A stretch of DNA of 41,819 nt from a virus. The notes below the pieces were generated by a model. It made no database searches, was not told where the DNA came from, and was given only the letters and a program-made list of their open reading frames with translations. Below are positions 1 to 16,193 of the stretch, in pieces; the stretch's first letter is position 1, and each line of letters begins with the position of its first letter. The translations under genes were made by a program, and so were the position numbers. The DNA is taken from positions 1-41,819 of the IMG/VR virus record IMGVR_UViG_3300022200_006398. One strand, given 5' to 3'.

Positions 1-1
1 C

Positions 2-391
2 AATGCTGGTGGTTACTACAATCACTCACTCTTCTGGAAATACATGCATCCAGGAGGGACTCCATTTGAAGGTAAATCCGAGCTCGGTAAAGCAATTAAA
101 AGCACTTTCGGTTCCTTCAATAACTTTAGGAACGAGTTCGTTGAATCTGGCAAGTCCCAGTTTGGATCAGGGTGGGTTTGGTTGGTTAAAAAAGATAATA
201 GGTTGGAAGTAGTACATACGCCTAATCAAGATAATCCTCTTATGAGCAATGCTGGTAAACCTATATTAGGTTGCGATGTATGGGAACATGCTTATTATCT
301 TATGAACGGTCCAGAAAGAGGAGAATGGATTAATAACTTCTTTAAAATTGTTCACTGGAATCATTGTAATACTATTTTTATCAGTGATTAA
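2..391 (+). CDS. sodA: Mn-type superoxide dismutase (5' end cut by window)
   Basis: C-terminal 129 codons of an Fe/Mn superoxide dismutase, which converts superoxide to oxygen and hydrogen peroxide in the cytoplasm. Visible family marks are NHSLFW (second metal-ligand His), FGSGWVWL, and DVWEHAYY carrying the ligand Asp and last ligand His. The first ligand His lies upstream of the window. The pairing NAGG before NHSLFW with NQDNPLM further on is the Mn-type signature; Fe enzymes usually carry Gln at the first position. The reading frame is open to the window edge, so the true start is not seen. The last dozen residues (after IVHWN) differ from typical SOD tails. A phage-borne SOD would protect an infected cell from oxidative damage; this role is inferred. 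Confidence 0.88.
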   Translation, partial: NAGGYYNHSLFWKYMHPGGTPFEGKSELGKAIKSTFGSFNNFRNEFVESGKSQFGSGWVWLVKKDNRLEVVHTPNQDNPLMSNAGKPILGCDVWEHAYYLMNGPERGEWINNFFKIVHWNHCNTIFISD

Positions 392-394
392 GAT

Positions 395-400
395 TAAATA
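395..400 (+). promoter_or_regulatory. T4-type late promoter element
   Basis: TAAATA ending 5 nt before the GTG start of the following gene. In T4 the late element spans about -13 to -6, so +1 would fall on the G of GTG, giving a leaderless message. Confidence 0.55.
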
Positions 401-405
401 ATTAC

Positions 406-1335: not shown

Positions 1336-1359
1336 TTTTAAAAGATACTTCCATATAAT
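1332..1359 (+). promoter_or_regulatory. Sigma70-type promoter of thyX
   Basis: TTGATT, 16-nt spacer, then a perfect TATAAT whose last base is 7 nt before the ThyX ATG. Transcription would start at or one base before the start codon. The -10 overlaps the 5' arm of an inverted repeat around the start. Confidence 0.7.
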
Positions 1360-1374
1360 AGAAAATATGGAAGT
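1347..1374. repeat. Inverted repeat enclosing the thyX start codon
   Basis: Perfect 9-bp arms ACTTCCATA (1347-1355) and TATGGAAGT (1366-1374) with a 10-nt loop. The 3' arm contains the ATG. Read-through RNA from the upstream late gene would fold and hide the start, while a transcript starting at the ATG lacks the 5' arm. Confidence 0.6.
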
Positions 1375-2044
1375 TAATCTTATTTCTGTTACTGATCCTA
1401 AAATTTTTACTGAAGATAACCAAAACAAATCTGAACGTTGGAGTAGGAGATCTTTAAATTCAGAAGAGCTTATTGCTTATTGTGCTCGAGTTTCCAATCC
1501 ATCTAATCAAATGAATATGGAGACTGCTCCGCGTTTGTTAAAGTATCTAATCAAACATAAACATTGGTCTCCATTTGAAATGGTCGATATGTGTGTTGAG
1601 ATTAAGACTAGTAGAGCAATAGCAGCTCAAATTCTTAGACATCGTAGTTTTTCCTTCCAAGAGTTCTCTCAACGATATAGCTCAGTTACTGAAATAGAAC
1701 CTATTGAACTGAGGAAACAAGCGGAGACAAACAGACAGAGTAGTGAGCAAGTAATTGACGAACCAGTAATCAATAATGTCGTACAATATGCAATTGATCA
1801 CGCTGTACAAACGTATGAGAAGTTGATAAAAGAAGGAGTTGCAAGAGAGCAGGCTCGTTTAGTTCTACCTCTTGCAGCTCAATCATGTCTTTATATGAAA
1901 GGTTCAGTAAGATCATGGGTTCATTATATTGATCTCAGAACAAAAGAAGATACTCAAAAAGAACATCGACTTATTGCGGAGAGTATTAAAAATATATTCA
2001 ATGAGCAGTTTCCGACTGTAGCAGAAGCCCTTGAATGGAAATGA
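1367..2044 (+). CDS. thyX: Flavin-dependent thymidylate synthase ThyX
   Basis: Converts dUMP to dTMP using FAD, NADPH and methylenetetrahydrofolate. The diagnostic ThyX signature RHRSFSFQEFSQRY is at residues 91-104 and fits RHR-x7-S. The C-terminal part keeps the nucleotide-binding ARLVLPLA and SVRSWVHYIDLR blocks. At 225 residues it is full length for the family. It has its own sigma70-type promoter and no Shine-Dalgarno. It overlaps the next gene by 4 bp (ATGA), so the two are probably translated together. With the downstream dNTP diphosphohydrolase-like gene, the kinase and the dUTPase near the window end, it makes up a phage nucleotide-supply set. Confidence 0.95.
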   Translation: MEVNLISVTDPKIFTEDNQNKSERWSRRSLNSEELIAYCARVSNPSNQMNMETAPRLLKYLIKHKHWSPFEMVDMCVEIKTSRAIAAQILRHRSFSFQEFSQRYSSVTEIEPIELRKQAETNRQSSEQVIDEPVINNVVQYAIDHAVQTYEKLIKEGVAREQARLVLPLAAQSCLYMKGSVRSWVHYIDLRTKEDTQKEHRLIAESIKNIFNEQFPTVAEALEWK

Positions 2045-2376
2045 ACAAACAATCAGATAACAATACGCAGTTTTCAACAGGAGCCCAACGTGATGATCGT
2101 AAGGGTAAACTTCGAATGAGCTTAATGCCTCACACAGCAATGAATAGAGTCATGAAAAGATATCTAGACGGTGCTGAAACTTATGGAGAGAATAATTGGC
2201 TAAAGGGTCAACCGTTCTCAGTATTGTATGATAGTGCTCAGAGACATATGATGCAGTTCTGGGCTGGTGATACTAGTGAAGACCATCTTGCAGCTGCAGC
2301 TTGGAATATTATGTCTATGATGCAATTTGAAGGTAAGAGAGAAGATTTAGACGATAGAAAAGAATTTCCTGTTTGA
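2041..2376 (+). CDS. dATP/dGTP diphosphohydrolase-like protein (DUF5664)
   Basis: Matches the small DUF5664/dGTP diphosphohydrolase N-terminal family seen in many phages. The family pattern is visible as TGAQRDDRKGK near the N terminus, YGENNWLKG, RHMMQFWAG and EDHLAAAAWNI; the His and Asp residues of the last two are candidate metal and catalytic positions. Known members remove pyrophosphate from dATP or dGTP. I chose the ATG giving a 4-bp ATGA overlap with thyX; an in-frame ATG 6 nt earlier is possible. Substrate cannot be read from sequence. In cyanophage S-2L a relative (MazZ) serves 2-aminoadenine DNA synthesis, but no PurZ is seen here. Confidence 0.75.
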   Translation: MNKQSDNNTQFSTGAQRDDRKGKLRMSLMPHTAMNRVMKRYLDGAETYGENNWLKGQPFSVLYDSAQRHMMQFWAGDTSEDHLAAAAWNIMSMMQFEGKREDLDDRKEFPV

Positions 2377-2400
2377 CGTTTTAAGGCTAAAATATATAAT
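2373..2400 (+). promoter_or_regulatory. Strong sigma70-type promoter
   Basis: TTGACG, 16-nt spacer, perfect TATAAT, then 8 nt to the ATG of the next gene. This is the best consensus promoter in the window. Predicted +1 lies about 2 nt before the start codon. Confidence 0.75.
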
Positions 2401-2408
2401 TTAAGAAT

Positions 2409-2699
2409 ATGAAAGAAAATAACACATATAAAGAAGCGGCAGTAGCACTGGTTAAATATTGTAATAAAAAGTTCACCGGTGGGTTTTTAGGTACACCTAA
2501 AGCAAATATCTATAGGCACCTTACTTTACCATCAGGTAAACAGGTTAAAGATTGGTTGATCGAAATGTATAGAGAAAGTCTTAAGACGAGAGGTCATAAT
2601 GAAGGCCGTTGGGCTCATTATCTTTTTAACAACCAAGATAAGGAACGTTGGAATCTTCTTTACAATGTTGCATATAATTATGCAAGGAAGATGCACTAA
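2409..2699 (+). CDS. Small hypothetical early protein
   Basis: No family recognised. The 96-residue product is basic and rich in aromatic residues, with a helical look (WLIEMYRESL, WNLLYNVAYNYARKMH), and no signal peptide or membrane segment. It has its own strong sigma70-type promoter and sits between a dNTP diphosphohydrolase-like gene and a nucleotide kinase. That points to early expression and a cytoplasmic role in host takeover or nucleotide metabolism. No Shine-Dalgarno is present. The role is unassigned. Confidence 0.7.
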   Translation: MKENNTYKEAAVALVKYCNKKFTGGFLGTPKANIYRHLTLPSGKQVKDWLIEMYRESLKTRGHNEGRWAHYLFNNQDKERWNLLYNVAYNYARKMH

Positions 2700-2731
2700 T
2701 TGACTATAGCGGTATCTGAATAAGTTTTAAT

Positions 2732-3484
2732 ATGCGTATAGCAATTTCAGGTACCGCTTGTCAAGGCAAATCAACATTAATAAAAGACTTTTTGCAGGAG
2801 TGGAATATGTACACCACTCCTGCAAAAACATATCGTGACTACCTTACAGAAAACAACCTACCCCACAGCAAAGAGACGACGAAGGATACGCAGTGGGACA
2901 TCCTTAATTTTATGGTCGATACGCTTCAACAATATTCAAAGGGCGATAAAGTTATTTTTGATCGTTGCCCTCTTGATAATATGGTATATTCTCTTTGGGC
3001 TCATGAAAAAGATAATAGCGACCTTGATAGCAATTTTATAAAGAAATGCATACCTGTGGTAAGAGAGAGTTTAAGATTTTTAGATGTAATCTTTTTTATA
3101 CCTATTACTAAAGCTGCACCTATAAAAATTGTCGAAGATGATTTAAGAGATACTGATGAAGAGTTTATTACCGAAATTGATAATATTTTCAAAGGTATTG
3201 AACGACAATATTTAGAAGGTCAAAAAGCTTCACCTTTTCTACCTAATGAAGAGTGTCCTGCTATTGTAGAAGTATTCGGTAACCGTGAACAGCGTTTACA
3301 TATGATGAGACAATACATTGATGCTGAAGGGGATTTGTTAGGTGAAAACAGCAGCTCTATCTTAGGTGAAGAGGTTCTTGATATGGAACAAATCCTTCGT
3401 GATCAACAACGTGAAATGAACAAAGAAAAGGCGCAAGCAGAAGAACTGATGCGCCAAATTCAAAACACTAAGAATAGACGTTAA
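2732..3484 (+). CDS. P-loop nucleotide/nucleoside kinase-like protein
   Basis: N-terminal Walker A motif GTACQGKST (residues 7-15), followed by a FDRCPLDNMVYSLW block of the kind found in AAA_28, NadR and deoxynucleoside-kinase-like P-loop proteins, where the DR pair contacts substrate. A ligand for the phosphoryl acceptor cannot be named. The last 35 or so residues (from MEQILRDQQREMNKEK) are a charged coiled-coil extension beyond the kinase core. Position beside thyX and the dNTP diphosphohydrolase-like gene supports nucleotide metabolism. The promoter is unclear: TTGACT is present, but the only -10 candidate is weak. The 3' end overlaps the convergent minus-strand gene by 4 bp. Confidence 0.75.
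   Translation: MRIAISGTACQGKSTLIKDFLQEWNMYTTPAKTYRDYLTENNLPHSKETTKDTQWDILNFMVDTLQQYSKGDKVIFDRCPLDNMVYSLWAHEKDNSDLDSNFIKKCIPVVRESLRFLDVIFFIPITKAAPIKIVEDDLRDTDEEFITEIDNIFKGIERQYLEGQKASPFLPNEECPAIVEVFGNREQRLHMMRQYIDAEGDLLGENSSSILGEEVLDMEQILRDQQREMNKEKAQAEELMRQIQNTKNRR
3422..3455 (-). terminator. Rho-independent terminator of the minus-strand gene
   Basis: On the minus strand, GGCGCA pairs with TGCGCC around a 14-nt loop and is followed at once by TTTTCTTT. It lies about 26 nt past the stop of the minus-strand gene, inside the 3' end of the convergent kinase gene. Confidence 0.6.
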
Positions 3485-4386
3485 CTATTTACTTGTTCAA
3501 ATCCAGTAATACTGTAATTTAAATTAAATTGAAGGGATTTGTAGTTAGATCTTATACCTCTACTTTTAAAAGTAATAAATATAGATTCACTTGGGTTTAA
3601 TAATTCTATTACCCCAACCCCATTCGTTGTTGGTATATTTGTCCCATTAACACTTAAAGTAACTTCTTGTGTTCTTATTCTTTTTTCACTCCTACCTGCT
3701 ATTTGACTTCTAAATATATTTTCTACTATATTTACGTTAGTTGCTATTCTTACATTTTTATAAGATTTTGAATCAGATGAAAATACGGTAAATGTTTCTG
3801 TAACATTATATTCTCCACCGGCTGTAAAATTTGGAGTTATTTCTTGTCTACCTGTAGTTAATACAGTAGCACCTATATTTGATTCTGCTACATCTAAGAA
3901 CCCTGGTAAACCATTACTTTGTATATTTAAAATTTCTCCTATCCCACCAGGCACTAATGTAACAAAACTTGAATTACTACCATCATAATATACCATACTA
4001 CCTGCTTGAATATTATTAGAATCGGTACTTATAGGTAAGAATGCTTGAGTACTTAAAGAGTTAATTGTAGTGTATGTTGATTCCCAATTACCACTTAATG
4101 AGTTTATAGTATTATAAATTGAATCTAATTTACCAAAATTAGGTTTAACTGTATCGTTAATATATGCATTAATAGAACACAATGATTGGGTATTAGTTAC
4201 AACCTGGGCAGATAATGTATCTATTGTCGTAAAGAAATCGGTATTTTCTTTACTAATAATAAAATTTTGAAAATCTAATTTATAGATAACTCCATTTGAA
4301 ATAGTAAACATATAATCACCATTGACTATATCTTGTATTTCCGCTATGTTATCTAACGTAATGAAATTGTCGTTTCCTGTGGACAT
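3481..4386 (-). CDS. Probable virion fibre or appendage protein
   Basis: No family recognised with certainty. The 301-residue product is rich in Ser, Thr and Asn with low Lys, typical of phage fibre proteins. Residues about 45-125 carry heptad-like spacing with repeated TINSLS and TIDTLSAQ units, suggesting a trimeric coiled-coil stalk. The rest (from GSMVYYDGSN onward) is beta-rich and ends in a strand-dense domain. It is a single-gene late unit on the opposite strand, with a TAAATA element 6 nt before its ATG and a hairpin terminator after it. Late timing and composition support a structural role; the exact part of the virion is unknown. Confidence 0.65.
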   Translation of the reverse strand: MSTGNDNFITLDNIAEIQDIVNGDYMFTISNGVIYKLDFQNFIISKENTDFFTTIDTLSAQVVTNTQSLCSINAYINDTVKPNFGKLDSIYNTINSLSGNWESTYTTINSLSTQAFLPISTDSNNIQAGSMVYYDGSNSSFVTLVPGGIGEILNIQSNGLPGFLDVAESNIGATVLTTGRQEITPNFTAGGEYNVTETFTVFSSDSKSYKNVRIATNVNIVENIFRSQIAGRSEKRIRTQEVTLSVNGTNIPTTNGVGVIELLNPSESIFITFKSRGIRSNYKSLQFNLNYSITGFEQVNS

Positions 4387-4407
4387 TTTAAGTATTTAAT
4401 CTAAAAT
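4385..4407. repeat. Palindrome holding divergent late and early promoters
   Basis: ATTTTA (4385-4390) and TAAAAT (4402-4407) are 6-bp arms around an 11-nt loop that contains the minus-strand TAAATA. The right arm is the -10 of the plus-strand gene; the left arm includes part of the minus-strand ATG. All pairs are A-T, so it would be a weak hairpin. Confidence 0.4.
4393..4398 (-). promoter_or_regulatory. T4-type late promoter element (minus strand)
   Basis: TAAATA read on the minus strand, ending 6 nt before the ATG of the minus-strand fibre-like gene. Confidence 0.55.
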
Positions 4408-4413
4408 ACATTA

Positions 4414-4632
4414 ATGACCAAAGTTAAAGCAGGTAAAATTATCAGGGTAGATAACAAAGAAAGAAAATTCGGTGCTAATCCCGAATATCTTGCTATTTGG
4501 GTTGAAAATCAATCTAATGATGAATTTTGTCTTTTGTTTACTGAAAGAGAACTAAAAGTTGCAAAAGATAGAGCAGATAAGAACAAAGAAGATATTCCAA
4601 GAAAAGGTTTCTTTACTGATTTGTTTGACTGA
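4414..4632 (+). CDS. Small hypothetical protein heading the sugar operon
   Basis: The 72-residue product has no recognised family. It begins with basic beta-like residues (KAGKIIRV), has a central segment AIWVENQSNDEFCLLFTERE that reads as two strands, and then a charged helix, giving a compact alpha/beta protein without a membrane segment. It is first gene after a sigma70-type promoter and shares its stop with the next start (TGATG), so it is translationally coupled to the first glycosyltransferase. Whether it belongs functionally to the sugar pathway is not shown by the sequence. Confidence 0.65.
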   Translation: MTKVKAGKIIRVDNKERKFGANPEYLAIWVENQSNDEFCLLFTERELKVAKDRADKNKEDIPRKGFFTDLFD

Positions 4633-5435
4633 TGACTAACTTAAATGCATCTGTAATTGTTTTCTATCGTAAAGATAGTGAAGATAGGGAGTTAAATTTA
4701 AAAACTCTTTTAAACTTTTACTACAAACATTACGAAAATTTCGAGTTTATAGTTTCTGAACAAAAACATTTAGAAAGTAGTATAGACTTCTCTTCTTATG
4801 AAAACCTTAAACATATAGTACTCCCTGATCTACAAGATACATGGAATAAAATGAAAGGTTATAATGAAGGGGTTAAAGATTCATTTTATGAAAATCTTAT
4901 CTTTAATGATGTAGATGTAATTTTTGGACCTGAACATATAAATGAAACTTTAGATATTTTAACTAAAGATAATAAGAAAATTATTTTACCTAACGACGGT
5001 CATTTTGTTTGTGTAAAAGAAGAGGTAAGAGATAAATTTATCGATAATTTAGATTACGGTTATCTTTGCGATCAAATAGACCCTAATCATTACAATCAAA
5101 TTAATTTTCAAAACGATAAAATTCATATAGGACATACAAGTACACCTGGAGGTGGGTTTGTTACTAAGAAAAGAAATATTTTTAACTGTAATGGTTTTAA
5201 CCCTAACTTCTTAGGTTGGGGATATGAGGATAACGAAACTTTAGCTCGTTTTAATAAAATGGGTTATACGGTATGTAGACTTACGGGAGACTTTAAGCCT
5301 CTGTTTCATATTAATCATGAGAGTGCTGAAAGAGAAACTAACCCATATTATAAACAGAATAACAATTTATGTAACTTTGTAGAAAAGATAGACAGTAAAC
5401 TTCTTTATCTATATAGCAACACTTGGAAAATGTAA
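4632..5435 (+). CDS. GT7-like (beta-galactosyltransferase-type) glycosyltransferase
   Basis: GT-A fold sugar transferase. The metal-binding DxD is FNDVDVIF (DVD at 93-95). The C-terminal acceptor block from GGGF (about 173) through NGFNPNFLGWGYEDNE (188-203) closely resembles the Glyco_transf_7C signature of beta-1,4-galactosyltransferases (NGFxxxxWGWGxEDDD). Known family members transfer Gal or GalNAc from the UDP-sugar. No signal peptide or membrane segment is seen, so a cytoplasmic enzyme is likely. It is a clear paralogue of the GT three genes downstream. Donor and acceptor are not determined. Confidence 0.8.
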   Translation: MTNLNASVIVFYRKDSEDRELNLKTLLNFYYKHYENFEFIVSEQKHLESSIDFSSYENLKHIVLPDLQDTWNKMKGYNEGVKDSFYENLIFNDVDVIFGPEHINETLDILTKDNKKIILPNDGHFVCVKEEVRDKFIDNLDYGYLCDQIDPNHYNQINFQNDKIHIGHTSTPGGGFVTKKRNIFNCNGFNPNFLGWGYEDNETLARFNKMGYTVCRLTGDFKPLFHINHESAERETNPYYKQNNNLCNFVEKIDSKLLYLYSNTWKM

Positions 5436-6247
5436 TGAAGATCAATATTAGAGATAGAAATTTTGGTCATGATATATCATCTTGTGCTAATACCCCAAGT
5501 AAATATATCGAATGGGTCAGAGACAATGTACCTGTCAGTGACGTTTGTTTTATTACTGATATGTGTCTTGAAGACGTAAAGAAAGCTTCTGGTGTTAAGA
5601 GAAAAGTAGCTTGGATATTAGAACCAAGAAGCATCCATCCTCATTCATATGCATGGATTGAAAAAAATAATAAACTATTTGATTTTGTTTTAACTTTTGA
5701 TCAAAATCTTATTGATAGAGGTGAAAATTATCTTTACTACCCTCATGGTAGATGTTGGATTAAAAATTATGTAGATAAACCTAAAACAAAAATGTGCAGT
5801 ATCTTTGCTTCAGAAAAAGCAATGACTGAAGGTCACCGTTTACGTCATCAAGTAATTGATTACAATGGTGAACAAATGGATTGTTTTGGTGAATATGTTC
5901 TCAATAGACTTGAGAATAAAGAAGACGGTCTTAATGATTACAGGTATTCAGTTACAATTGAAAATGCTATCTTACCTGGTTATTGGACTGAAAAATTATT
6001 AGATTGTTTTGCTACAAAAACCATACCTATCTATTATGGTGATAAAGATTCAGTTAATAAATTTTTCAACAAAAATGGTATCATTTATTTTAACTCATTA
6101 AATGATATTGATCTTGTTTTAAGTAATATGTCAGAAGATGATTACAATATGCGTCTTTCTGCTGTTGAAGAAAATTATAGCAAAGTAGAACAGTTTAGAG
6201 TACCAGAAGATTGGATATTCGAAAATTATAAATTTTTATTTGAATGA
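5435..6247 (+). CDS. GT10-like alpha-1,3-fucosyltransferase
   Basis: Residues 169-203 (YRYSVTIENAI, then YWTEKLLDCFATKTIPIYYGD) match the nucleotide-sugar binding block of GT10 fucosyltransferases, including the conserved Glu-Asn, TEKL and final Tyr-Gly. GT10 enzymes add fucose from GDP-fucose to GlcNAc or glucose. The length, 270 residues, is short but complete for phage and bacterial relatives. The ATG overlapping the upstream stop (TAATG) is chosen over a TTG 12 nt earlier. It is followed by a GT11 fucosyltransferase relative with a 4-bp overlap. No GDP-fucose synthesis gene is in the window, so the host or another part of the genome would have to supply the donor. Confidence 0.82.
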   Translation: MKINIRDRNFGHDISSCANTPSKYIEWVRDNVPVSDVCFITDMCLEDVKKASGVKRKVAWILEPRSIHPHSYAWIEKNNKLFDFVLTFDQNLIDRGENYLYYPHGRCWIKNYVDKPKTKMCSIFASEKAMTEGHRLRHQVIDYNGEQMDCFGEYVLNRLENKEDGLNDYRYSVTIENAILPGYWTEKLLDCFATKTIPIYYGDKDSVNKFFNKNGIIYFNSLNDIDLVLSNMSEDDYNMRLSAVEENYSKVEQFRVPEDWIFENYKFLFE

Positions 6248-7029
6248 AAACTATTTTATTAAAAGGAGGTTTAGGTAATCAGCTTTATCAAATAGCTGCA
6301 ATTAATTCTTATTGTAAAGATAATGATGAAGAGTTCTTTATTGATTATAGTGCAAGATTTGGGTGCGGTCAAGGTAAACACCCGGTAATGTATAAAGATA
6401 ACTTTTATAAGAATTTTAAAACCGGTAAAATAACTGATGAATTTAAACTTTCACAAGAACCACAATTTACATATAACGAAATAGAAAAAACAGATGAAAA
6501 CATTGTTTACGAAGGTTATTATCAGTCTCCCAAATACTTTGCAAAGTATAGAGATGAGCTTAATGATTGGTTTTGTTTTGATGAAGAAAAATATTCTCCT
6601 ATAGAAAACAAAATTAATCAGTTAAGAGAAAAAACAGGTAAAAAGGTTGTAGGTGTTCACGTTAGGAGAGGTGATTATACTCACAACCCTGATATACACC
6701 CTTCCATTCCTAAAAGCTTTTACGATAAAGCTAAAAACATGTTTAAAGATCACGTTTTCATATATGCAACTGATGACTTTGCAACCGTATCAAAAGAGTT
6801 TAAGTTTGATGAAAATAATATCTATGTAAACGGTGAAAGTGAATTAGAAGATTTCTATACGTTAAGTTGCTGTGATTCTATTATTATGGGTAATAGTACT
6901 TTTGCTGCATGGTCAAGTTATCTTGGTAAAAAGAAAGAAAAAGTAATTGCCCCGGTACCTTGGTTTGGACCAAAAGGCCCAGAGTATAAAGATTTACTTG
7001 ATGATAATTGGACTATTATAAAGGTATGA
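6244..7029 (+). CDS. GT11-like alpha-1,2-fucosyltransferase
   Basis: Carries the three GT11 landmarks: N-terminal GGLGNQLYQ (8-16), the GDP-fucose binding motif HVRRGDY (139-145), and IIMGNSTFAAWSSYLG in the C-terminal third. GT11 enzymes add fucose in alpha-1,2 linkage, usually to terminal galactose. With the GT7-like galactosyltransferase relatives on both sides and the GT10 upstream, the set resembles what is needed for a fucosylated Gal-GlcNAc type glycan. It overlaps both neighbours by 4 bp. Start has no Shine-Dalgarno. The enzyme family call is firm; the acceptor is unknown. Confidence 0.9.
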   Translation: MKTILLKGGLGNQLYQIAAINSYCKDNDEEFFIDYSARFGCGQGKHPVMYKDNFYKNFKTGKITDEFKLSQEPQFTYNEIEKTDENIVYEGYYQSPKYFAKYRDELNDWFCFDEEKYSPIENKINQLREKTGKKVVGVHVRRGDYTHNPDIHPSIPKSFYDKAKNMFKDHVFIYATDDFATVSKEFKFDENNIYVNGESELEDFYTLSCCDSIIMGNSTFAAWSSYLGKKKEKVIAPVPWFGPKGPEYKDLLDDNWTIIKV

Positions 7030-7835
7030 TCTCTATCAAATCTACATTCTGTATTTTTTATCAAAAAGATCATGACGATAGAGAACGTAATTTAAATATT
7101 CTACTTCATTATCTTTTAAAAAATTATACTGATTTAGAAATCTTAGTACTTCAGCAATATATAGATAAAGAGCAAAGAGATAATCTTAAACCTTTACCTA
7201 TCTTCCGTAATGAAAATATATTTCATCATAGATTATTAGAAGATACAGAGTATTGGAATAAAATGACTGCATATAACTTTGGTTTAAAATATGCTTCATA
7301 TGATACTATTTTCTTTAATGATGTAGATACTATTTTTAACCCACAAGATATAGTTAAAGCTTATGATCTTATTAATAACGAAAATAAGATTCTTATTCCT
7401 TCTGGTCCTAATTTTATTGATGTAAAAGTACCGTTAATAGATAAGTTTAAAGAAACTTTAGACTATAATACCTATTTGAATGAGTATCAAAATTTCCATG
7501 TTTATGAAAATAATCTTTTTAGACGTAATAACATGGGTGGCCCTGGTGGTGGGTTAGCTGGTAATAAAAACACATTTATTTCAATGAATGGATTTAACCC
7601 TAAATTCAAAGGTTGGGGTTTTGAAGATGATGAAACTCGTGAAAGATTTGCTAAGTTTGGAAACCCTGTAAAATTTATTGAGGATGGTTCTCCTATCTTT
7701 CATATGGTTCATGAAGGAGCAAAAAGAGGTACTGCAATGTGTAAGTATATGGAAACAAATAGACAAGTTTTAGAAGAAATGAGAGCTATGTCTTATGAAC
7801 AAGTAAAGGAATATAGTTTTTCATGGAAACTGTAA
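7026..7835 (+). CDS. Second GT7-like glycosyltransferase
   Basis: Paralogue of the first GT in this operon. It shares the N-terminal F-Y-x-K-D-x-x-D-R-E pattern, the DxD as FFNDVDTIF (DVD at 99-101) and the C-terminal block GGPGGGLAGNKNTF followed by NGFNPKFKGWGFEDDE (188-203). It probably arose by duplication and may add the same class of sugar (Gal or GalNAc type) to a different acceptor. The ATG in the ATGA overlap with the GT11 gene is preferred to an upstream TTG. Soluble, with no membrane segment visible. Confidence 0.8.
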   Translation: MISIKSTFCIFYQKDHDDRERNLNILLHYLLKNYTDLEILVLQQYIDKEQRDNLKPLPIFRNENIFHHRLLEDTEYWNKMTAYNFGLKYASYDTIFFNDVDTIFNPQDIVKAYDLINNENKILIPSGPNFIDVKVPLIDKFKETLDYNTYLNEYQNFHVYENNLFRRNNMGGPGGGLAGNKNTFISMNGFNPKFKGWGFEDDETRERFAKFGNPVKFIEDGSPIFHMVHEGAKRGTAMCKYMETNRQVLEEMRAMSYEQVKEYSFSWKL

Positions 7836-8515
7836 TCATATTTCAACCAGCTGGTATAGGTGATATTTTTTATTGCTTAAAAATAGCCTACTATATATCT
7901 TTCTATGATAAAAGTGTTAAAACAATTGAATGGCCTGTAGTAGACGAGTTCTCTTATATAAAAGATTATATTAAAATTCCAAAACTTAAATTTACTTCAT
8001 TTAATGATTTTGTTGATCAAGATGATAAAAAGCAAATTTTAAATTTAAGAGATGCTGATATAGGTAAACCTCAATACGATAACAACACAATGCAAGCTAA
8101 GTATGATTTAGCAAATATAGATTCTAGTGATGCATTAGATTATTTTGATTTCTTTAGAAATTATGAAAGAGAAGAAAAATTATATAATGAGTTAAATCCT
8201 AATAATGAAGAATATATTTTAAGAAGTTGTAATGTAGGTTCTCCTCCTCAATATTCCGCAAGACAAATTAATATTGAAACTAATAAAAAAATTATTGATA
8301 TAAAAGTATTACCCAACTACAACTTATTTGATTGGTGTAAAGTTTTAGAAAATGCATCCGAAATTTATATGGTTGATACTTCGTTTATGTATTTGATGGA
8401 AAAACTTGACCTTAAAGCATCCAAATTTAAATTATATAGTAGGTTTAATCCTGCCAATTTTAATGTAATAAAACATATTCCTAAAAACGTAAAATGGGAA
8501 TTAACTGAATGGTAA
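7823..8515 (+). CDS. GT9/GT-B-like glycosyltransferase fragment or relative
   Basis: N-terminal QPAGIGDIFYCLKIAYY resembles the GxGD start of heptosyltransferase-type GT9 proteins. The later stretch LENASEIYMVDTSFMYLMEKL resembles their donor-site block (A-x-x-x-x-x-x-D-T-x-x-x-H-x), but with Met-Tyr in place of the usual His. At 230 residues it is shorter than full GT9 enzymes (about 330), so it may be a reduced form. It overlaps the previous gene by 13 bp and is coupled to the operon. Activity is uncertain; a fold-level call only. Confidence 0.55.
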   Translation: METVIIFQPAGIGDIFYCLKIAYYISFYDKSVKTIEWPVVDEFSYIKDYIKIPKLKFTSFNDFVDQDDKKQILNLRDADIGKPQYDNNTMQAKYDLANIDSSDALDYFDFFRNYEREEKLYNELNPNNEEYILRSCNVGSPPQYSARQINIETNKKIIDIKVLPNYNLFDWCKVLENASEIYMVDTSFMYLMEKLDLKASKFKLYSRFNPANFNVIKHIPKNVKWELTEW

Positions 8516-8516
8516 G

Positions 8517-9152
8517 ATGGGTAATTTAAGAATTTTTAATTTAAATGAACTAACACAACTTAATAAAGCATCTGTGTTTATTGAAACCGGTACTTTATAT
8601 GGAGATGGAATTGTTCAAGCGTTAAGATATGACTTTGATAGAATCATATCTATAGAAATAGAACCAACAGTAGCAGAAAAAGCTAGACATAGATTCAGAA
8701 ATGAATCGAGAGTAGAAATAATTACCGGTCACTCAACCTCTGTATTAGAAGAAATTTTACCTACTATTGATAGTAATATTTTATTTTGGTTAGATGCTCA
8801 TTTTCCTGGAGCAGATGCTGAATTAAAATCATATGACGAAATTAAAAAATTAGATTTCAATTTAAATTTACCTTTAGAAGATGAAATTAATCTAATATCA
8901 AAAAGATTAGGTAAGTATAAGGATGTTTTAATTTGTGATGATTTATGGGTTTATGAATCAATAAAAGAAGGGAGTGACAAAAAGAGACCTTCGTTTGATG
9001 AACATTGTAAAGCTCACGGTCATAACATAACTTTAAATGATATTAACCCAGATGGAAAAGACCTTTCAATGTTATATGAAACTTTTGGTAAGACACATGA
9101 CTTTAGAAAGGTTTATAGAGATCAAGGATATGTAATAGTATACCCATTATGA
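8517..9152 (+). CDS. SAM-dependent methyltransferase-like protein
   Basis: Class I methyltransferase pattern: FIETGTLYGDGIVQAL as the glycine-containing first loop, then ISIEIEPTVAEKA with the acidic residue after strand 2, then VEIITGHSTSVL, and ILFWLDAHF as the strand-4 motif. The 211-residue length fits a single Rossmann domain plus a short C-terminal addition. Position inside a sugar operon suggests methylation of a sugar or of a glycan end, as FkbM-type enzymes do. The substrate is not visible. It starts 1 nt after the previous stop and overlaps the next gene by 4 bp. Confidence 0.6.
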   Translation: MGNLRIFNLNELTQLNKASVFIETGTLYGDGIVQALRYDFDRIISIEIEPTVAEKARHRFRNESRVEIITGHSTSVLEEILPTIDSNILFWLDAHFPGADAELKSYDEIKKLDFNLNLPLEDEINLISKRLGKYKDVLICDDLWVYESIKEGSDKKRPSFDEHCKAHGHNITLNDINPDGKDLSMLYETFGKTHDFRKVYRDQGYVIVYPL

Positions 9153-9952
9153 TAGTACATAACAATTTAAATAAAAATTATTGGGAAGACCCTTTAAGAT
9201 ATTGGGATTTTGAACAATATAAGGATTTGGTTTCTGATGACATTCACGTTTACATTGGATGTGATTGGGACGCAATGAAAAATTCAAATGTTACCGGTAA
9301 AAAGATTTGCTGTCATTTTGAAGAGGTATATGATGATTTAGATGGTACGGAAACTCTTATTGCACCTTATTGTGATGAGATGCTTACTATTAGTAAAACT
9401 GCTGCTGAAAAGAAACCTAATAGAAAGTATGTTTACTTTCCTTTGAACGAAAAATATTTACCAGAAAAGATTCTAGCTCCATCTGAAAAAATTTATGATG
9501 CTTGTTACACCGGTAATCATAATGGTACATCCCCTGTACCGGAAATCTTTAACACTTTAGGAGGTATGAGTTACGGTAAGTATGTGTTAGCTTCTTTTTC
9601 TAGAGGTACACATACAAATGTTACATATAAACAAAAATTGCAGTTGATAAGCGAGTCCAGGGTAACTGTAACTCATAACTCCACCCGAGCTTATGCTCAG
9701 TTGAAGAGCAGATCATTTGAAGCAGCATTTAATAAGAGTTTAATATTATGTTGCGAAAAATTTAGTAACTATATGGACCCTTGGTTTGTAAAGGATGAAC
9801 ATTTTGTTACTTTTGAGGAAGGTAAATTAAAAGAACGTTTAAACGAAATTTTAAACAACTACGAGTCTTATTATGACATGATAGAAAAGACTTATGATTT
9901 AGCTATTAATAATTACACGGTTAAAAATTTTATATTAGATTTTATATGTTAA
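9149..9952 (+). CDS. GT1-like (GT-B, CgeB-type) glycosyltransferase
   Basis: The C-terminal half has the layout of Glyco_trans_1_2 proteins: YDACYTGNHNG, then AYAQLKSRSFEAAFNKSLIL, where the conserved Arg-x-Phe-Glu block contacts the nucleotide sugar, then an aromatic acidic stretch and a closing helical part. The N-terminal half reads as a Rossmann-like acceptor domain. The family transfers sugars from nucleotide donors. 267 residues is compact for a GT-B enzyme. It has 4-bp and 7-bp overlaps with its neighbours. Donor unknown. Confidence 0.6.
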   Translation: MIVHNNLNKNYWEDPLRYWDFEQYKDLVSDDIHVYIGCDWDAMKNSNVTGKKICCHFEEVYDDLDGTETLIAPYCDEMLTISKTAAEKKPNRKYVYFPLNEKYLPEKILAPSEKIYDACYTGNHNGTSPVPEIFNTLGGMSYGKYVLASFSRGTHTNVTYKQKLQLISESRVTVTHNSTRAYAQLKSRSFEAAFNKSLILCCEKFSNYMDPWFVKDEHFVTFEEGKLKERLNEILNNYESYYDMIEKTYDLAINNYTVKNFILDFIC

Positions 9953-10887
9953 GTATTGTAACAACAACTATTAACGAGCCTACTGAAGCAACTAAAAGGT
10001 ATGCTAAATTAGCTCTCAATAATGATTGGACATTTTATGTAGTAGGGGATACCAAAACGCCTCATAAGCTTTACGAAGATATGGCTGGTGTGTCTTACCT
10101 TCACCCCGACTACCAGGAAAAGAAATATAAAGAACTTAGTGATAGTATAGGGTGGAGATCTATTCAAAGAAGAAATATTGGGTTTGTTGAAGCATATAAA
10201 GAAAGTAACAACAAAATTATTGCCACTATTGATGATGATAATATACCATATGATGACTGGGGGTCTGATATAAAGGTTAATACAAAAATAAATGTTAACC
10301 ATTATAGAGGTAATACATATGTCTTTGATCCTATTTCACCTACATCTTATCATGATAAAATTTGGCATAGAGGTTTCCCTTTAGATTATGTACCTGAAAG
10401 AAAAAAAGCTCAATTACTTCAAGATAAAGAAGTAGAGGTTAAAGTGCAAGCTGATTTTTGGAATGGTGATCCTGATATTGACGCAATGGCAAGACTAACA
10501 GTAAAGCCTTATTGTGATTTTAATTCTGAAAAAGGATTGTTCCCCTTTACTAGCGAAAATATCCACCCTTTTAATTCTCAAAATACATTTTTATCCAGAG
10601 ATGTTATACCTCATTATGCTGTATGGCCTCATGTAGGAAGAATGGATGATATTTGGGGTGGTTATTATCTTCAAACCAAAATAAAACCTAATCAAGTTAT
10701 ATTTGATAAAGCATCAGTTTATCAAAATAGGAATGAGCAAGATTTAATTACTAATTTAGAAAAAGAAATTATAGGTTATAGAAATACTTTATCATGGGTG
10801 TTAAATTGTTGTACTATTAACAGTGATTTAATACCAGATGAAACTAAAAAATTCTTAGACATTTATTTTAATGAATTTAATAAATAA
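9946..10887 (+). CDS. GT75/STELLO-like sugar-active protein
   Basis: Begins with a GT-A-like strand (LSIVTTTINEPT). It has a triple Asp metal motif in ATIDDDNIPYDDWG (DDD 96-98), HRGFPLDYV, and a later SQNTFLSRDVIPHYAVWPH with a DDIWGGYYLQ block. This order resembles the reversibly glycosylated polypeptide (UDP-arabinopyranose mutase) and STELLO/DUF288 proteins. It is the last gene of the uninterrupted overlapping run; a 38-nt very AT-rich spacer follows. Whether it is a mutase or a transferase cannot be told. Confidence 0.55.
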   Translation: MLSIVTTTINEPTEATKRYAKLALNNDWTFYVVGDTKTPHKLYEDMAGVSYLHPDYQEKKYKELSDSIGWRSIQRRNIGFVEAYKESNNKIIATIDDDNIPYDDWGSDIKVNTKINVNHYRGNTYVFDPISPTSYHDKIWHRGFPLDYVPERKKAQLLQDKEVEVKVQADFWNGDPDIDAMARLTVKPYCDFNSEKGLFPFTSENIHPFNSQNTFLSRDVIPHYAVWPHVGRMDDIWGGYYLQTKIKPNQVIFDKASVYQNRNEQDLITNLEKEIIGYRNTLSWVLNCCTINSDLIPDETKKFLDIYFNEFNK

Positions 10888-10925
10888 CATATCTTATATA
10901 ATTTTTTTAAAATAAAAAAAAACTT
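10888..10925 (+). promoter_or_regulatory. AT-rich spacer with possible promoter
   Basis: Holds a TATAAT at 10897-10902, 23 nt before the next ATG, with no good -35, followed by a T-run and an A-run. This is the one spacer in the window whose start would have a leader of some length. No Shine-Dalgarno. Confidence 0.3.
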
Positions 10926-11585
10926 ATGAAATTTACACATATACATCAATCCAAATGGTTAAAATATTACCTAAATAAAAACTTTGATAATAAACTTGGT
11001 GTTTTTTTAGAAATAGGGGTAGGTAATATTATAAGTCATGACTTTTGTGTATATCCAGAAAAATATAAGGAAAAAAAATGGAATGAATTGCCAATTATAG
11101 GATCTAATACTATTGAACTTTTGCAAATAGGTTGGGAAGGGTATTATTTTGACCCAGTTCCATTATTTGTAGAACAAGCTAAACTTTTAGCTCCTGATAA
11201 AAATAAAATTTATACTAAAGCAGTTGGTTTAGGTAAAAACAATGAGGAAAAGTTTTTACGAGCCGGTGATACATTTTTAGAAAGAGATACTCAATCAATA
11301 CCAAATGTAAATTGGATAAATAAAACGTACAAAATACAAAATGCAAATGAAGCATTATTAGAAAGTAATATTCCAAATTTTATAGATTTTTTTAGTCTAG
11401 ATGTAGAAGGTTATGAACTTAATATATTAGAAAGTATAGATTTTAACAAATATAAATTTAATTTAGTTTTTGTTGAAGTGGAAAGAGTAACTTTAGAGGG
11501 TGTTGCTAATTTATTACCAAATTATAAATGTATTGAATATGATCAAAGTAACGCCCTTTTTCAACACAATGAATTTAGTAAATGA
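10926..11585 (+). CDS. FkbM-family methyltransferase
   Basis: FkbM-type SAM methyltransferase, a family that O-methylates sugars and polyketide-like groups. Seen: FLEIGVG as the SAM glycine loop, WEGYYFDPVP, and the strongly typical block IDFFSLDVEGYELNILESID followed by LVFVEVE. 219 residues, single domain, no membrane segment. It ends the sugar region and its 3' end overlaps the pyrophosphatase start by 17 bp. Codon use is very AT-rich even for this window. It may cap the glycan built by the upstream transferases; this is inferred from context. Confidence 0.8.
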   Translation: MKFTHIHQSKWLKYYLNKNFDNKLGVFLEIGVGNIISHDFCVYPEKYKEKKWNELPIIGSNTIELLQIGWEGYYFDPVPLFVEQAKLLAPDKNKIYTKAVGLGKNNEEKFLRAGDTFLERDTQSIPNVNWINKTYKIQNANEALLESNIPNFIDFFSLDVEGYELNILESIDFNKYKFNLVFVEVERVTLEGVANLLPNYKCIEYDQSNALFQHNEFSK

Positions 11586-12090
11586 TATTCCAATAGGTAT
11601 AGATGCTCCTTTAAGGATAAATGCTATAATTGAAGTTGAAAAGGATACTAATGCCAAGTATGAGTACGATGAACAATTAGGTATCTTTAAACTTAGCAGA
11701 TGTCTTTACAGTAGTATGAGATACACCTGTTCGTATGGATTTGTCCCTCAAACTTTAGCTTTAGATAATGACCCTCTAGATGTTTGTGTTTATAATAATG
11801 TACCTATCAAAACTGGCACTCTAGTAGAAGTTTATCCAATAGCTGTTTTAGATATGGATGATAATGGTGATAAAGATTATAAGATTATTACAGTACCTGT
11901 TTCTCACGTAAAGGATTATCGTTCTCTAAAAGATCTTGACCCGCATTGGGTTTCAACTACATTTAATTTCTTCTCACATTATAAAGACTTAGAAGCCAAA
12001 GAAGTAAAAATTCATGGATGGCTAGGTAAATCAGATGCTAAAAAAATAATAAATGCCGCTCATAAACGTTGGTCTTCTTTGCAGAAGTGA
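11569..12090 (+). CDS. ppa: Inorganic pyrophosphatase (family I)
   Basis: Hydrolyses PPi to two phosphates. Family I marks: KYEYDEQ (30-36), SYGFVPQTLALDNDPLDV (55-72) with the metal-binding Asp trio at 66, 68 and 71, LDMDDNGDKDYKIITVP (94-110), and FFSHYKDLE (134-142). At 173 residues it matches the bacterial enzyme length. An upstream in-frame ATG 69 nt earlier is rejected because homology begins at MNLVNDIPIG. All key acidic residues appear intact, so it is probably active. PPi removal would favour DNA synthesis and nucleotide-sugar formation. Confidence 0.92.
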   Translation: MNLVNDIPIGIDAPLRINAIIEVEKDTNAKYEYDEQLGIFKLSRCLYSSMRYTCSYGFVPQTLALDNDPLDVCVYNNVPIKTGTLVEVYPIAVLDMDDNGDKDYKIITVPVSHVKDYRSLKDLDPHWVSTTFNFFSHYKDLEAKEVKIHGWLGKSDAKKIINAAHKRWSSLQK

Positions 12091-12096
12091 TATAAT
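12069..12096 (+). promoter_or_regulatory. Sigma70-type promoter with extended -10
   Basis: TTGGTC, 16-nt spacer, TGA-TATAAT (extended -10), then 6 nt to ATG. Predicted +1 is exactly the A of the start codon. Confidence 0.7.
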
Positions 12097-12102
12097 GACT
12101 AT

Positions 12103-12693
12103 ATGTTTAATGTAGAAAAATATGACGGTAATCTTCTTCATAGCAGATTTGCATATAAGTTTTTCAAAGATAAAGTATTACCTATTGGTAATCTAGTATC
12201 ATTTAGAGCTCCTATGGAAGTGCTTGCTGATGGAATGATCGATCAGGAAGATGTTGATAAGCAAGAATTCATCTGGAGTGATGACTCAATTAACTTTTTA
12301 TGGGAAATTCCTATCCTAGATAACCCTTTTGGTGCAGTAGCATATCAGAGATTGCTTAATACTTGTATTGCTAATATTCTAGCTAAGCCTGAATACCTGA
12401 ATTGTCCTATCTATATGGATGGTGATGATATCATGGTACAGAAAGAGTTTACTCAAGGCGGTGTTGTTCAGCAAGAAGGTAAAGTAAGTGTTAGTATTAC
12501 ATATGTTAAAGACGGTGTAGCTCTTGGTCATACCGGTATCAATGTAGTAGCTGGTAAGAAGGCTCCTGCATTTGCATTTAGTACTAATTTTACTGATGAG
12601 CAAGTGAATAATTTCTGTGGTGAAGTAAACAAAGCATTCTATGAATTGAATGATGATATGTTCGTTGCTACGTCTAAAGTTATTATTAAGTAA
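12103..12693 (+). CDS. DUF366-like protein
   Basis: Resembles the DUF366 family, small proteins of about 190 residues without a known reaction. Recognisable parts are RFAYKFF, LVSFRAPMEV, GMIDQEDV, and INFLWEIP followed by FGAVAYQRLLNT. The C-terminal half is beta-rich with a Gly-rich turn. No membrane segment. It has its own strong extended -10 promoter and is followed 5 nt later by the gp62-like gene, so it probably belongs to an early/middle operon. Function unknown. Confidence 0.6.
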   Translation: MFNVEKYDGNLLHSRFAYKFFKDKVLPIGNLVSFRAPMEVLADGMIDQEDVDKQEFIWSDDSINFLWEIPILDNPFGAVAYQRLLNTCIANILAKPEYLNCPIYMDGDDIMVQKEFTQGGVVQQEGKVSVSITYVKDGVALGHTGINVVAGKKAPAFAFSTNFTDEQVNNFCGEVNKAFYELNDDMFVATSKVIIK

Positions 12694-12698
12694 TTGTA

Positions 12699-13100
12699 AT
12701 GCTCAATATCTTTGAAATTCTAAATGATATAATTGTTACTAAGAAGGGTAACCTTTTGGATAACGTTGAGGATGAAGATCAGTTCCTTCCTTATATTGTT
12801 TGTAGGTGGTTGAGTATGTACTCTCCTGAGTATGCTCAGATTATTAATGAGACCACTAACAAGCATTATAACGTATTTGATACGAAGAGAGAGTGGTATG
12901 ATTATCTGATTAAAATATTACCAAAAGGTTCGCCTGGACGTATTCATTATATCAAAAAAGAGAAAAGAAAAGATATCAATAACTTTGATGAGATAGTAAA
13001 GTTTCTTGCTAAACGTTTTGAAATATCTAGACGTGAAGTAGAACAATATCTTGACTCAGGTAAAATAGATGTAACTAAAATTAAATCAGCATTGAAATAA
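12699..13100 (+). CDS. gp62-like sliding-clamp loader small subunit
   Basis: Similar in layout to T4-type gp62: the opening IFEILNDIIVTKKGNLLDN, the block LPYIVCRWLSMYSPEYAQIINET, a basic middle (HYIKKEKRKD) and a final helical FEISRREVEQYL. In T4, gp62 joins four gp44 ATPases to load the gp45 clamp. The product is 133 residues, shorter than T4 gp62 (187). The probable partner ATPase gene is at the far end of this window, not next door as in T4. Call is by pattern only. Confidence 0.55.
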   Translation: MLNIFEILNDIIVTKKGNLLDNVEDEDQFLPYIVCRWLSMYSPEYAQIINETTNKHYNVFDTKREWYDYLIKILPKGSPGRIHYIKKEKRKDINNFDEIVKFLAKRFEISRREVEQYLDSGKIDVTKIKSALK

Positions 13101-13124
13101 TATGTAAGGCTAATAAGTCTTTAC

Positions 13125-13535
13125 ATGTCTCAGGCAGAAAAAAGTATTGACTTATTAGCTCCTAAAAAGAGTCTAATCGACTTATCAGACCCCACTCAAG
13201 GATTCGATTCTACCTTGATGGGGTATTCCCTTTCTACCCTAATGGAAGATGTTATACTTGTTCGTTACGTTGACTCTAACGAAGATGGCACAGCTATCAT
13301 TCGTAACGGTATTTATGTTCCAATTAATGCTGATACCAAAGCATGGCGTATTGGAGAAGTATTACTTAAAGGTACTAAATGTGAATATGTCAATGTTGGT
13401 GATCATGTTATGTTTCCAAACAATCTTGGTATTCCTATTAATAATCTCGACGTTGATGGTATCGGCAATGTAAAGAAAGGGTTATTCTTAAACGAAGCTA
13501 GAATTTTCGGCATCGTAAAGCCTAATGAAGGTTAG
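13125..13535 (+). CDS. GroES-like co-chaperonin
   Basis: The region from about residue 38 has the Cpn10 order: LMEDVILVRYV (first strand), GIYVPINADTKAWRIGEVLLKG (mobile-loop exit and core), YVNVGDHVMFP (the G-D-x-V-x-F signature), then a hairpin and EARIFGIV as final strand. An extra N-terminal 35 or so residues precede it. T4 gp31 and related phage co-chaperonins work with host GroEL to fold the major capsid protein, which is the likely role here. It overlaps the next gene by 11 bp. No convincing promoter; TAATAA 8 nt upstream is weak. Confidence 0.72.
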   Translation: MSQAEKSIDLLAPKKSLIDLSDPTQGFDSTLMGYSLSTLMEDVILVRYVDSNEDGTAIIRNGIYVPINADTKAWRIGEVLLKGTKCEYVNVGDHVMFPNNLGIPINNLDVDGIGNVKKGLFLNEARIFGIVKPNEG

Positions 13536-13905
13536 TAGAGGACAACTTATAAACATTCTTAAAAACAATGTCTGTGAAGTAAAATTTGTTAGACGTGTTA
13601 TTAAGACCGGTGCACCACCTACTCGTCGTATGTTGTGTACAAATAGTTTTACTCTTTTGAATAGCGAGAACGGTAGGTTAACTCTAAACTATAGGCCCAC
13701 CACTCGTTTACCTGATTATGATCCAACGATTAAAAATTTAATTATTGTTTGGGATATATTCATGCAAAATTATAGACAAATTAATTGTACTAATGGTGTA
13801 GAATTAATTAGAACGATTCCTGCTAATGAGGAATTTTGGAAATACTTTACTGAAAACCTACAAACTTTAACACCACAAGAAAAACTAAATTTTCAAAATA
13901 CATGA
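13525..13905 (+). CDS. DUF2693-like SH3-barrel protein
   Basis: Fits the phage DUF2693 pattern of a small SH3-like barrel: a helix RGQLINILKNN, a strand CEVKFVRRV, then RRMLCTNSFTLL, and a late LIIVWDIFMQNYRQINC strand pair. Members occur in many phages and have no defined reaction; nucleic-acid or protein binding is possible. The 126-residue product here has a longer middle loop than usual. Translationally coupled to the co-chaperonin gene by an 11-bp overlap. Confidence 0.5.
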   Translation: MKVSRGQLINILKNNVCEVKFVRRVIKTGAPPTRRMLCTNSFTLLNSENGRLTLNYRPTTRLPDYDPTIKNLIIVWDIFMQNYRQINCTNGVELIRTIPANEEFWKYFTENLQTLTPQEKLNFQNT

Positions 13906-14249
13906 TTGTTAAAGTTATAGATGAAATAGAAAATAATTTTAAAGACTTTTTTCTTAATAATGTTAATTTTGTAATTAATGAAAAAATTATTAAGAAAGGC
14001 AAACTTATTAATCTATCAGTAAAAGATTTTTTTATTATATTTCAATTAGAAATACCTAAAGGCGGTATCAAAACATTTGAGATACCTTATCCCTTTGGAA
14101 TAGAAAATAAAAAGTCGTTTGTTAATTTTGATTATAGGCTTTGTACGTTAACTCAAAACGATACTTATAAATTTGTTAAAGCAAGAAATTTTAAACCAAA
14201 AAAGAACTCAAAGTTTTATGATGTTCAAATGATAATGAAAATAGTATGA
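13902..14249 (+). CDS. Hypothetical beta-rich protein
   Basis: No family recognised. The 115-residue product is basic and rich in Phe, Ile and Asn. It starts with a helix (DEIENNFKDFFLN) and then alternates short strands (FIIFQLEIP, TFEIPYPFGI). It contains no Cys motif, signal or membrane segment. 4-bp overlaps with both neighbours place it in one translated block with the DUF2693-like and zinc-finger genes that leads to the helicase. Confidence 0.6.
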   Translation: MIVKVIDEIENNFKDFFLNNVNFVINEKIIKKGKLINLSVKDFFIIFQLEIPKGGIKTFEIPYPFGIENKKSFVNFDYRLCTLTQNDTYKFVKARNFKPKKNSKFYDVQMIMKIV

Positions 14250-14548
14250 GAATATTTTTTAGTGTATTTACTGGAGTGATTTATGAACTTGAAGAAGAGT
14301 TTACTAACAACTTAGATTGTGGTCAACTTGAGATAACTAATCACCCAAAAAGTAATTGTAAGAAATGCTATGGTAAAGGCCATACGCATAAAAATATAAA
14401 AACAGACCACTACACGTTGTGCAATTGTACGATGAAAGAAGCTACCCCATCTATGTTAAAGATTATGTCAGAACACCAAGTAGAAGATGTTACTCTTCAT
14501 ACTAAAAAATCTGACTTTGATTCTATAGTCGATGACATATACTCATGA
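14246..14548 (+). CDS. Small zinc-finger protein (DnaJ-type CxxCxGxG)
   Basis: Contains CKKCYGKGH, the CxxCxGxG knuckle of DnaJ-type zinc fingers, followed 17 or so residues later by LCNC, so a four-Cys zinc site is likely. The N-terminal 30 residues are a strand-rich segment and the C terminus is acidic and helical. Such knuckles bind unfolded protein or nucleic acid. The gene directly precedes the helicase and overlaps its upstream neighbour by 4 bp. Function beyond zinc binding is not shown. Confidence 0.65.
   Translation: MRIFFSVFTGVIYELEEEFTNNLDCGQLEITNHPKSNCKKCYGKGHTHKNIKTDHYTLCNCTMKEATPSMLKIMSEHQVEDVTLHTKKSDFDSIVDDIYS
14517..14543 (+). promoter_or_regulatory. Weak sigma70-type promoter of the helicase gene
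   Basis: TTGATT, 15-nt spacer, TATACT, then 8 nt to ATG. It lies inside the end of the zinc-finger gene, so it is less certain than the spacer promoters. Confidence 0.35.
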
Positions 14549-14551
14549 TAT

Positions 14552-16180: not shown

Positions 16181-16181
16181 A

Positions 16182-16187: not shown

Positions 16188-16193
16188 TTTTGA

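Follow-up and report, generated by a model that had tools for sequence, protein, structure and literature searches.

Introduction

Fucosyltransferase-bearing sugar clusters are already known from T4-like cyanophages, and that of S-SCSM1, which includes a GDP-mannose 3,5-epimerase, has been published (PMC9602691). The glycan of the chlorovirus PBCV-1 is of an unusual type and contains fucose, and mutations in glycosyltransferases give rise to antigenic variants (PMC5408694). In antibiotic pathways, the GT75 nucleoside diphosphate (NDP)-pyranose mutases MtdL and Hyg20 interconvert the pyranose and furanose forms of GDP-L-fucose and of GDP-L-galactose, and MtdL makes GDP-L-galactofuranose from GDP-L-galactopyranose in the synthesis of antibiotic A201A (PMC9937993). 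Here we analyze a nine-gene sugar island at 4632-11585 (plus strand) of the 41.8 kb virus record IMGVR_UViG_3300022200_006398; the whole stretch of 41,819 nucleotides (nt) is referred to as the window, and all positions are counted along it. The best explanation of the island, and one that we hold to be fairly probable, is a phage-encoded modular glycan-assembly operon with an MtdL-like furanose mutase.

The locus resembles the lipopolysaccharide (LPS)/cell-wall clusters of the cyanophages S-SCSM1, S-T4, Sf-CH5 and S-SRM01, marine T4-like phages in which GT10/GT11-type and GT7-like glycosyltransferases are likewise clustered with FkbM or other methyltransferases and with genes for GDP-mannose-derived sugars; a homologous sugar gene set, defined by shared families, was confirmed in S-T4, Sf-CH5 and S-SRM01. 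It differs in that the common families are mostly 22-37% identical to those of the window, with the mutase alone reaching 56%, in that the window's clade lacks psbA in the records searched and has a portal protein ∼31% identical, and in the position of the island, between a fibre-like gene and the pyrophosphatase/gp62 genes. With PBCV-1 the window shares virus-encoded glycosyltransferases and GDP-sugar enzymes; PBCV-1, however, is a eukaryotic virus with a proven capsid N-glycan, whereas the enzymes and functions described here are read from genes alone.

Results

The gene at 9946-10887 falls into no Pfam, PHROGs or NCBIfam family. Used as a profile against the PDB, its product matches MtdL (7yua, 7xpr) at E 5e-33, and a Foldseek search with its AlphaFold model (pLDDT 93.7) returned MtdL structures as the six best matches (template-modelling (TM) score 0.77-0.80), followed by rice UAM2 (TM 0.61); the model thus has the GT75 fold, a GT-A core with the regions specific to MtdL/UAM. 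Identity to MtdL is 23-24%, with a length of 313 as against 376 amino acids (aa), and the gene stands in a glycan operon, not an antibiotic cluster. Residues were mapped through MtdL alignments: DDD109-111 corresponds to D96-98, Arg159 to R142, Asp195 to D177, Ser228/Gln229 to S211/Q212, Arg257 to R232, Asp260 to D235 and Arg289 to R262, and the features shared with MtdL and Hyg20 comprise the fold, the DDD motif, the nucleophilic Arg, the base Asp, the Gln and the Arg. Over 149 homologues (70 phage and 79 cellular), D96-98, R142, D177, S211, Q212, R232 and D235 are invariant, as is R262 apart from one gapped row. Mutating the matching MtdL residues abolishes or strongly cuts activity, or they bind metal (PMC9937993). 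With respect to the base, Asp40 is retained, and position 86 is usually occupied by Ser, Thr or Cys, not by the Asp with which GDP binding is blocked in MtdL. An earlier note on this DNA had described the product as a GT75/STELLO-like protein that could extend or cap a glycan. The relation to GT75 holds; plant STELLO is rejected because MtdL is the best structural and sequence match, and profile, fold and catalytic residues indicate that the protein is most likely a furanose-donor mutase rather than a chain extender or cap. No pertinent paper came out of a literature search on GT75-type mutases and reversibly glycosylated proteins in phages, with subscription journals outside its coverage.

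In phages the mutase gene often lies near one for GDP-mannose 3,5-epimerase (GME), which makes GDP-L-galactose and was recognized from its similarity to Arabidopsis GME (2c59, 3e-88). GME is found at most 10 kb from the mutase in 47 of 67 phage loci (36 of 50 after dereplication), and several copies are only 10-70 nt away. Phage mutases form one clade with eight cellular ones (support 0.957); GME is present in five of these eight cellular loci, as compared with 7 of 68 outside the phage-type clade (p 0.002). Among loci with a GT10 gene, GME accompanies 7 of the 9 with a mutase and 18 of the 71 without (p 0.003), a difference that is not significant when counts are confined to loci of at least 15 kb (p 0.14). 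Besides L057 and L058, which represent the same or nearly the same phage, the mutase nearest to that of the window is from L120, where GME follows 12 nt after it. A GT1-like gene stands immediately 5′ of the mutase in 37/64 phage loci and in 0/76 cellular loci, which makes the GT1-like protein the best candidate for the enzyme that uses the furanose donor produced by the mutase.

Cellular loci often have a different partner. A sugar epimerase-type short-chain dehydrogenase/reductase (SDR) directly adjoins the mutase in 46/80 of them, and in 38 of these 46 bacterial or archaeal loci (within L151-L218) one conserved SDR family other than GME, whose best solved relatives are sugar epimerases and dehydratases, comes directly after the MtdL-like gene. 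L209, which has a stop codon, was left out of one alignment. The mutase, itself outside any Pfam family, and its adjoining SDR would constitute a widespread two-gene sugar pathway in bacteria and archaea.

The window holds no gene of the nucleotide-sugar epimerase family, and the donor step must therefore be supplied by another part of the phage genome or by the host. The earlier note had proposed a search for GDP-fucose synthesis genes; the window has none, and certain relatives encode GMD, GDP-fucose synthase or both. Upstream of the island in the near-identical L058, one SDR of the GMD-like group and no GME were found. A second sugar cluster adjoins there, upstream of the window's start (L132, positions 1-8374, from relative L058), in the order 640-aa GT1, 558-aa radical SAM protein, GT9-like gene, GMD-like SDR and superoxide dismutase; the window's open reading frame (ORF) at 44-391 is the C-terminal part of this superoxide dismutase.

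The island and its borders are organized as follows.

3481-4386, minus strand: divergent fibre-like protein, left border; conserved N-terminus, swapped C-terminus
4414-4632, plus strand: 72-aa ORF at the operon head; its stop overlaps the start of GT7-like A (TGATG)
4632-5435, plus strand: GT7-like/GT2-like glycosyltransferase A (PF02709, 45.7 bits)
5423-6247, plus strand: GT10-type (alpha-1,3-fucosyltransferase family) enzyme, TTG start (PF00852, 30.5 bits)
6244-7029, plus strand: GT11-type (alpha-1,2-fucosyltransferase family) enzyme (PF01531, 83.2 bits; phrog_2644)
7008-7835, plus strand: GT7-like/GT2-like glycosyltransferase B (PF02709, 39.4 bits)
7823-8515, plus strand: possible small GT9-like (GT-B) protein, by a weak fold match
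8517-9152, plus strand: putative S-adenosylmethionine (SAM) methyltransferase (MT1), conserved core (sub-threshold RMNT_CmcI)
9149-9952, plus strand: GT1-like glycosyltransferase (PF13524, Glyco_trans_1_2, 27.7 bits)
9946-10887, plus strand: putative GT75/MtdL-like nucleotide-sugar pyranose/furanose mutase, by profile, fold and residues
10870-10885, plus strand: left 16-nt repeat AATGAATTTAATAAAT, boundary of the FkbM indel
10926-11585, plus strand: FkbM-type O-methyltransferase, accessory cassette (PF05050, 45.2 bits)
11568-11583, plus strand: right 16-nt repeat AATGAATTTAGTAAAT, boundary of the FkbM indel, holding the pyrophosphatase start
11569-12090, plus strand: inorganic pyrophosphatase, last island-linked gene (PF00719, 171 bits); its start, inside FkbM, was fixed by comparison with L058

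All nine sugar ORFs proposed in the earlier note as an operon were confirmed in the sequence on the plus strand. Neighboring genes share 4-22 nt, with two exceptions: the GT9-like and first methyltransferase genes are separated by 1 nt, and 38 nt lie ahead of FkbM. Between the window and L058, the eight testable genes have dN/dS values of 0.011-0.106 at dS 0.16-0.36. From the overlaps and these ratios, the nine genes are a functional operon under strong purifying selection; the ratios rule out chance ORFs or decaying genes. The operon is longer than the island proper, as the 72-aa ORF leads in and the pyrophosphatase follows. Seven of the nine sugar genes score above their Pfam cut-off or have a strong PDB profile match; NCBIfam gave no match for the five island proteins scanned.

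The remaining enzymes were judged against Pfam cut-offs of 23 (GT7C), 27 (GT7N), 23.9 (GT10 and GT11), 25 (Glyco_trans_1_2) and 22.7 bits (FkbM). The fucosyltransferase relatives named in the earlier note are borne out: the GT10-type protein passes through its C-terminal domain, has H. pylori fucosyltransferase (FucT) as its best profile match (8e-16) and keeps the donor-binding block EN..GYWTEK, of which E180, N181, Y187, E190 and K191 are invariant in 10 phage proteins, and the GT11-type protein carries the HxRRxD motif as HVRRGDY; a PDB search with the latter gave no match. An alignment query replaced the viral scans made with the single GT10 and GT11 proteins, in which the only phages recovered were that of the window and L058. 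The GT1-like assignment also stands, by its Glyco_trans_1_2 score; this protein and the GT9-like one are of GT-B-like type. Of the two methyltransferases, FkbM is well above its cut-off and MT1 has a sub-threshold match only (RMNT_CmcI, E 0.065), but its family (A4) is conserved in relatives. The GT9-like gene has no Pfam match, and its model (pLDDT 89.5) resembles GT9 heptosyltransferases/WaaC weakly (E 1e-4, TM 0.55), so that this assignment is retained as tentative.

The two GT7-like proteins, GT-A enzymes 35% identical to each other, were taken in the earlier note for galactosyltransferase relatives. Both have the GT7 C-terminal domain, and the DVD, GWGYED and HxxH motifs are conserved in their family (A5). 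The similarity, however, is confined mainly to the C-terminal part, with GT7N at 14.9 bits or absent, and the PDB profile match to chondroitin synthase (8.5e-14, the best) outscores that to beta-4-galactosyltransferase (1e-11), with polypeptide GalNAc-transferase 2 at 4e-5. A closest relation to galactosyltransferases is accordingly not upheld, and a galactose donor and GlcNAc acceptor are guesses. This bears on the product suggested earlier, a Lewis/H-type structure (Gal-GlcNAc with alpha-1,3 and alpha-1,2 fucose) like that of Helicobacter O-antigen. The GT10 and GT11 families do include enzymes of that pathway, as the FucT match illustrates, but both have other acceptors as well, the GT7-like proteins are not demonstrably galactosyltransferases, their match to chondroitin synthase being no weaker, no GlcNAc transferase was identified, and a furanose mutase and methyltransferases are foreign to Lewis/H synthesis. 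Specificity cannot be read from families, and we consider literal Lewis/H synthesis very improbable.

The island is modular, with cassettes exchanged at a fixed site. L058 is 93% identical to it in DNA but lacks FkbM, which is a 698-bp segment between 16-nt repeats at 10870 and 11568 (one mismatch) and an exact indel relative to L058; the repeats double as coding sequence for the last residues of the upstream protein, and the right copy encodes the pyrophosphatase start. L140 is 84.5% identical on the right flank (11569-17407), while the alignable parts of its island reach only 67-76%: the GT1-like, mutase and FkbM genes are missing, MT1 overlaps the pyrophosphatase directly, and a GT34-like and an additional GT7-like gene are present. 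L137 and L139 retain GT10-GT11-GT9-like-MT1-pyrophosphatase and have the left part replaced, and at the same site L133 has SDRs, a sulfotransferase-like gene and a GT34-like gene. The left border, in the records that include it, is the divergent fibre-like gene; the N-terminal 60 aa of its product are 72-90% identical in relatives, and the remainder diverges. Its C-terminus is swapped between phages that are otherwise ∼95% identical. The pyrophosphatase is translationally coupled to the island and absent, along with the GT9-like and MT1 genes, from L009; because the three are missing together, it appears to travel with the sugar genes.

The probable source of the window is the genome of a T4-like myovirus that has not been cultivated, of which it would be a fragment. 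Its portal protein is ∼30-33% identical to those of cyanophages and pelagiphage HTVC008M (∼31% to cyanophages), and the island is surrounded by relatives of clamp-loader (gp62), helicase, gp3-like and baseplate genes. No psbA was found in the records searched from the window's clade, the longest being near relatives of 66 and 69 kb and a 209-kb relative at 61% portal identity, while the same search recovered psbA in cyanophage S-T4 and one other large record; the host is therefore probably not a cyanobacterium. T4 glycosylates DNA bases, on hydroxymethylcytosine, and a T4-like phage whose window includes the nucleotide-metabolism genes ThyX, MazG, tmk and dUTPase might do likewise. No hydroxymethylase was identified in the window, however, and the many unrelated glycosyltransferases, FkbM and fucosyltransferase families differ from the known DNA-modification set, so we assign DNA-base glycosylation a very low probability.

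Discussion

Two kinds of acceptor have to be weighed for a modular glycan-assembly operon of this type. The enzymes could act on a lipid-linked or LPS-core host glycan while the phage infects, altering the cell surface so as to block superinfection or grazers. The same gene types have been described in this way in cyanophages, as LPS-type genes (PMC9602691), cytoplasmic glycosyltransferases could work on undecaprenyl diphosphate (Und-PP)-linked host intermediates, the divergent neighbor encodes a fibre-like protein whose C-terminus is exchanged, and the GT9-like fold resembles LPS heptosyltransferases. On the other side, neither the island nor the relatives read yielded a priming transferase, flippase, polymerase or ligase. 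Host-surface remodeling is, in our estimation, a substantial possibility that falls somewhat short of probable.

The window also encodes Thr-rich proteins: a 1337-aa protein (16991-21004; 24% Thr) in which two LamG-type domains are separated by long TPT-type Thr/Ser/Pro stalks, and a 238-aa protein (22380-23096; 32% Thr) with Thr/Ser/Pro tracts. Thr-rich tracts occur in all portal relatives of at least 80% identity and in only three more distant ones (58-68%). Adjacent genes at 26425-28455 and 28457-29680 both begin with an Mtd_N domain (major tropism determinant N-terminus) and probably encode receptor-binding proteins.

Mucin-type glycosylation of these Thr/Pro-rich stalks on the virion is possible, and we entertain it tentatively. 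All tract-bearing relatives of at least 80% portal identity whose records include the island region carry a sugar island, the GT7-like profile reaches polypeptide GalNAc-transferase 2, and carrier genes are lacking. But the tract-bearing island phages are all of one clade and count as a single evolutionary event, GT10 is found without tracts in L095 and G020 and a tract without GT10 in G017, the match to GT27 is weak, and the virion location of the tract proteins is deduced from gene position alone. Thr-rich proteins as proven targets are thus rejected, the correlation being within one clade and having these three counter-examples; of the earlier suggestion that they could be glycosylated, it stands that such proteins exist in the structural region, and the link is only suggestive. 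Because we identified no gene for a lipid carrier, flippase or polymerase, we slightly favor, as a guess, cytoplasmic modification of the phage's own virion proteins over the making of a new polymer for the host surface; the host surface is about as likely a target as the virion.

Several observations weigh against an operon built around an MtdL-like furanose mutase. Asp87 of MtdL, essential there and Ser in plant enzymes, is Ile73 in the window protein, the Mn ligand His287 is Gln260, and Asn42 is Lys37, in each case almost uniformly across the subfamily. Because of these replacements, the substrate and even the mutase activity are predictions, and by its sequence the protein belongs to a separate subfamily of GT75-type, MtdL-like mutases whose substrate is not fixed by homology. 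The window's phage and L058 are the only GT10 loci that have a mutase yet no GME in reach, and the phage locus counts are not phylogenetically independent. Finally, L095 has the island, the mutase and GME, yet no Thr-rich tract.

In the mechanism that we propose for the operon, the MtdL-like enzyme would form a covalent Arg142-sugar intermediate and contract the ring of a GDP-sugar from pyranose to furanose, the substrate most likely being GDP-L-galactose, in view of the GME partner in relatives, or GDP-L-fucose. The GT1-like protein would then transfer the furanose, GT10 and GT11 would attach fucose (or the sugar of a similar GDP-L-sugar donor), and hydroxyls would be capped by the methyltransferases. 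Since relatives swap cassettes at a fixed site, near-identical phages probably make different products, in the manner of serotypes. It is also conceivable, but in our view unlikely, that marine T4-like phages build a mucin-type O-glycan containing fucose and L-galactofuranose on Thr-rich, lectin-bearing virion stalks, with its type switched by cassette exchange, by means of an undescribed phage-borne lineage of GT75-type mutases.

Marine phage sugar genes are usually grouped under the broad label 'LPS genes'. In this case, a gene outside any Pfam family is given a testable chemical role, the ring contraction of a GDP-sugar, and in dozens of phages this role is linked with an epimerase as partner and with a glycosyltransferase next to it. 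This role predicts a furanose in the product, which provides a concrete target for glycomics, and the exact exchange of cassettes between near-identical phages opens the purpose of phage glycan variation to direct comparison.

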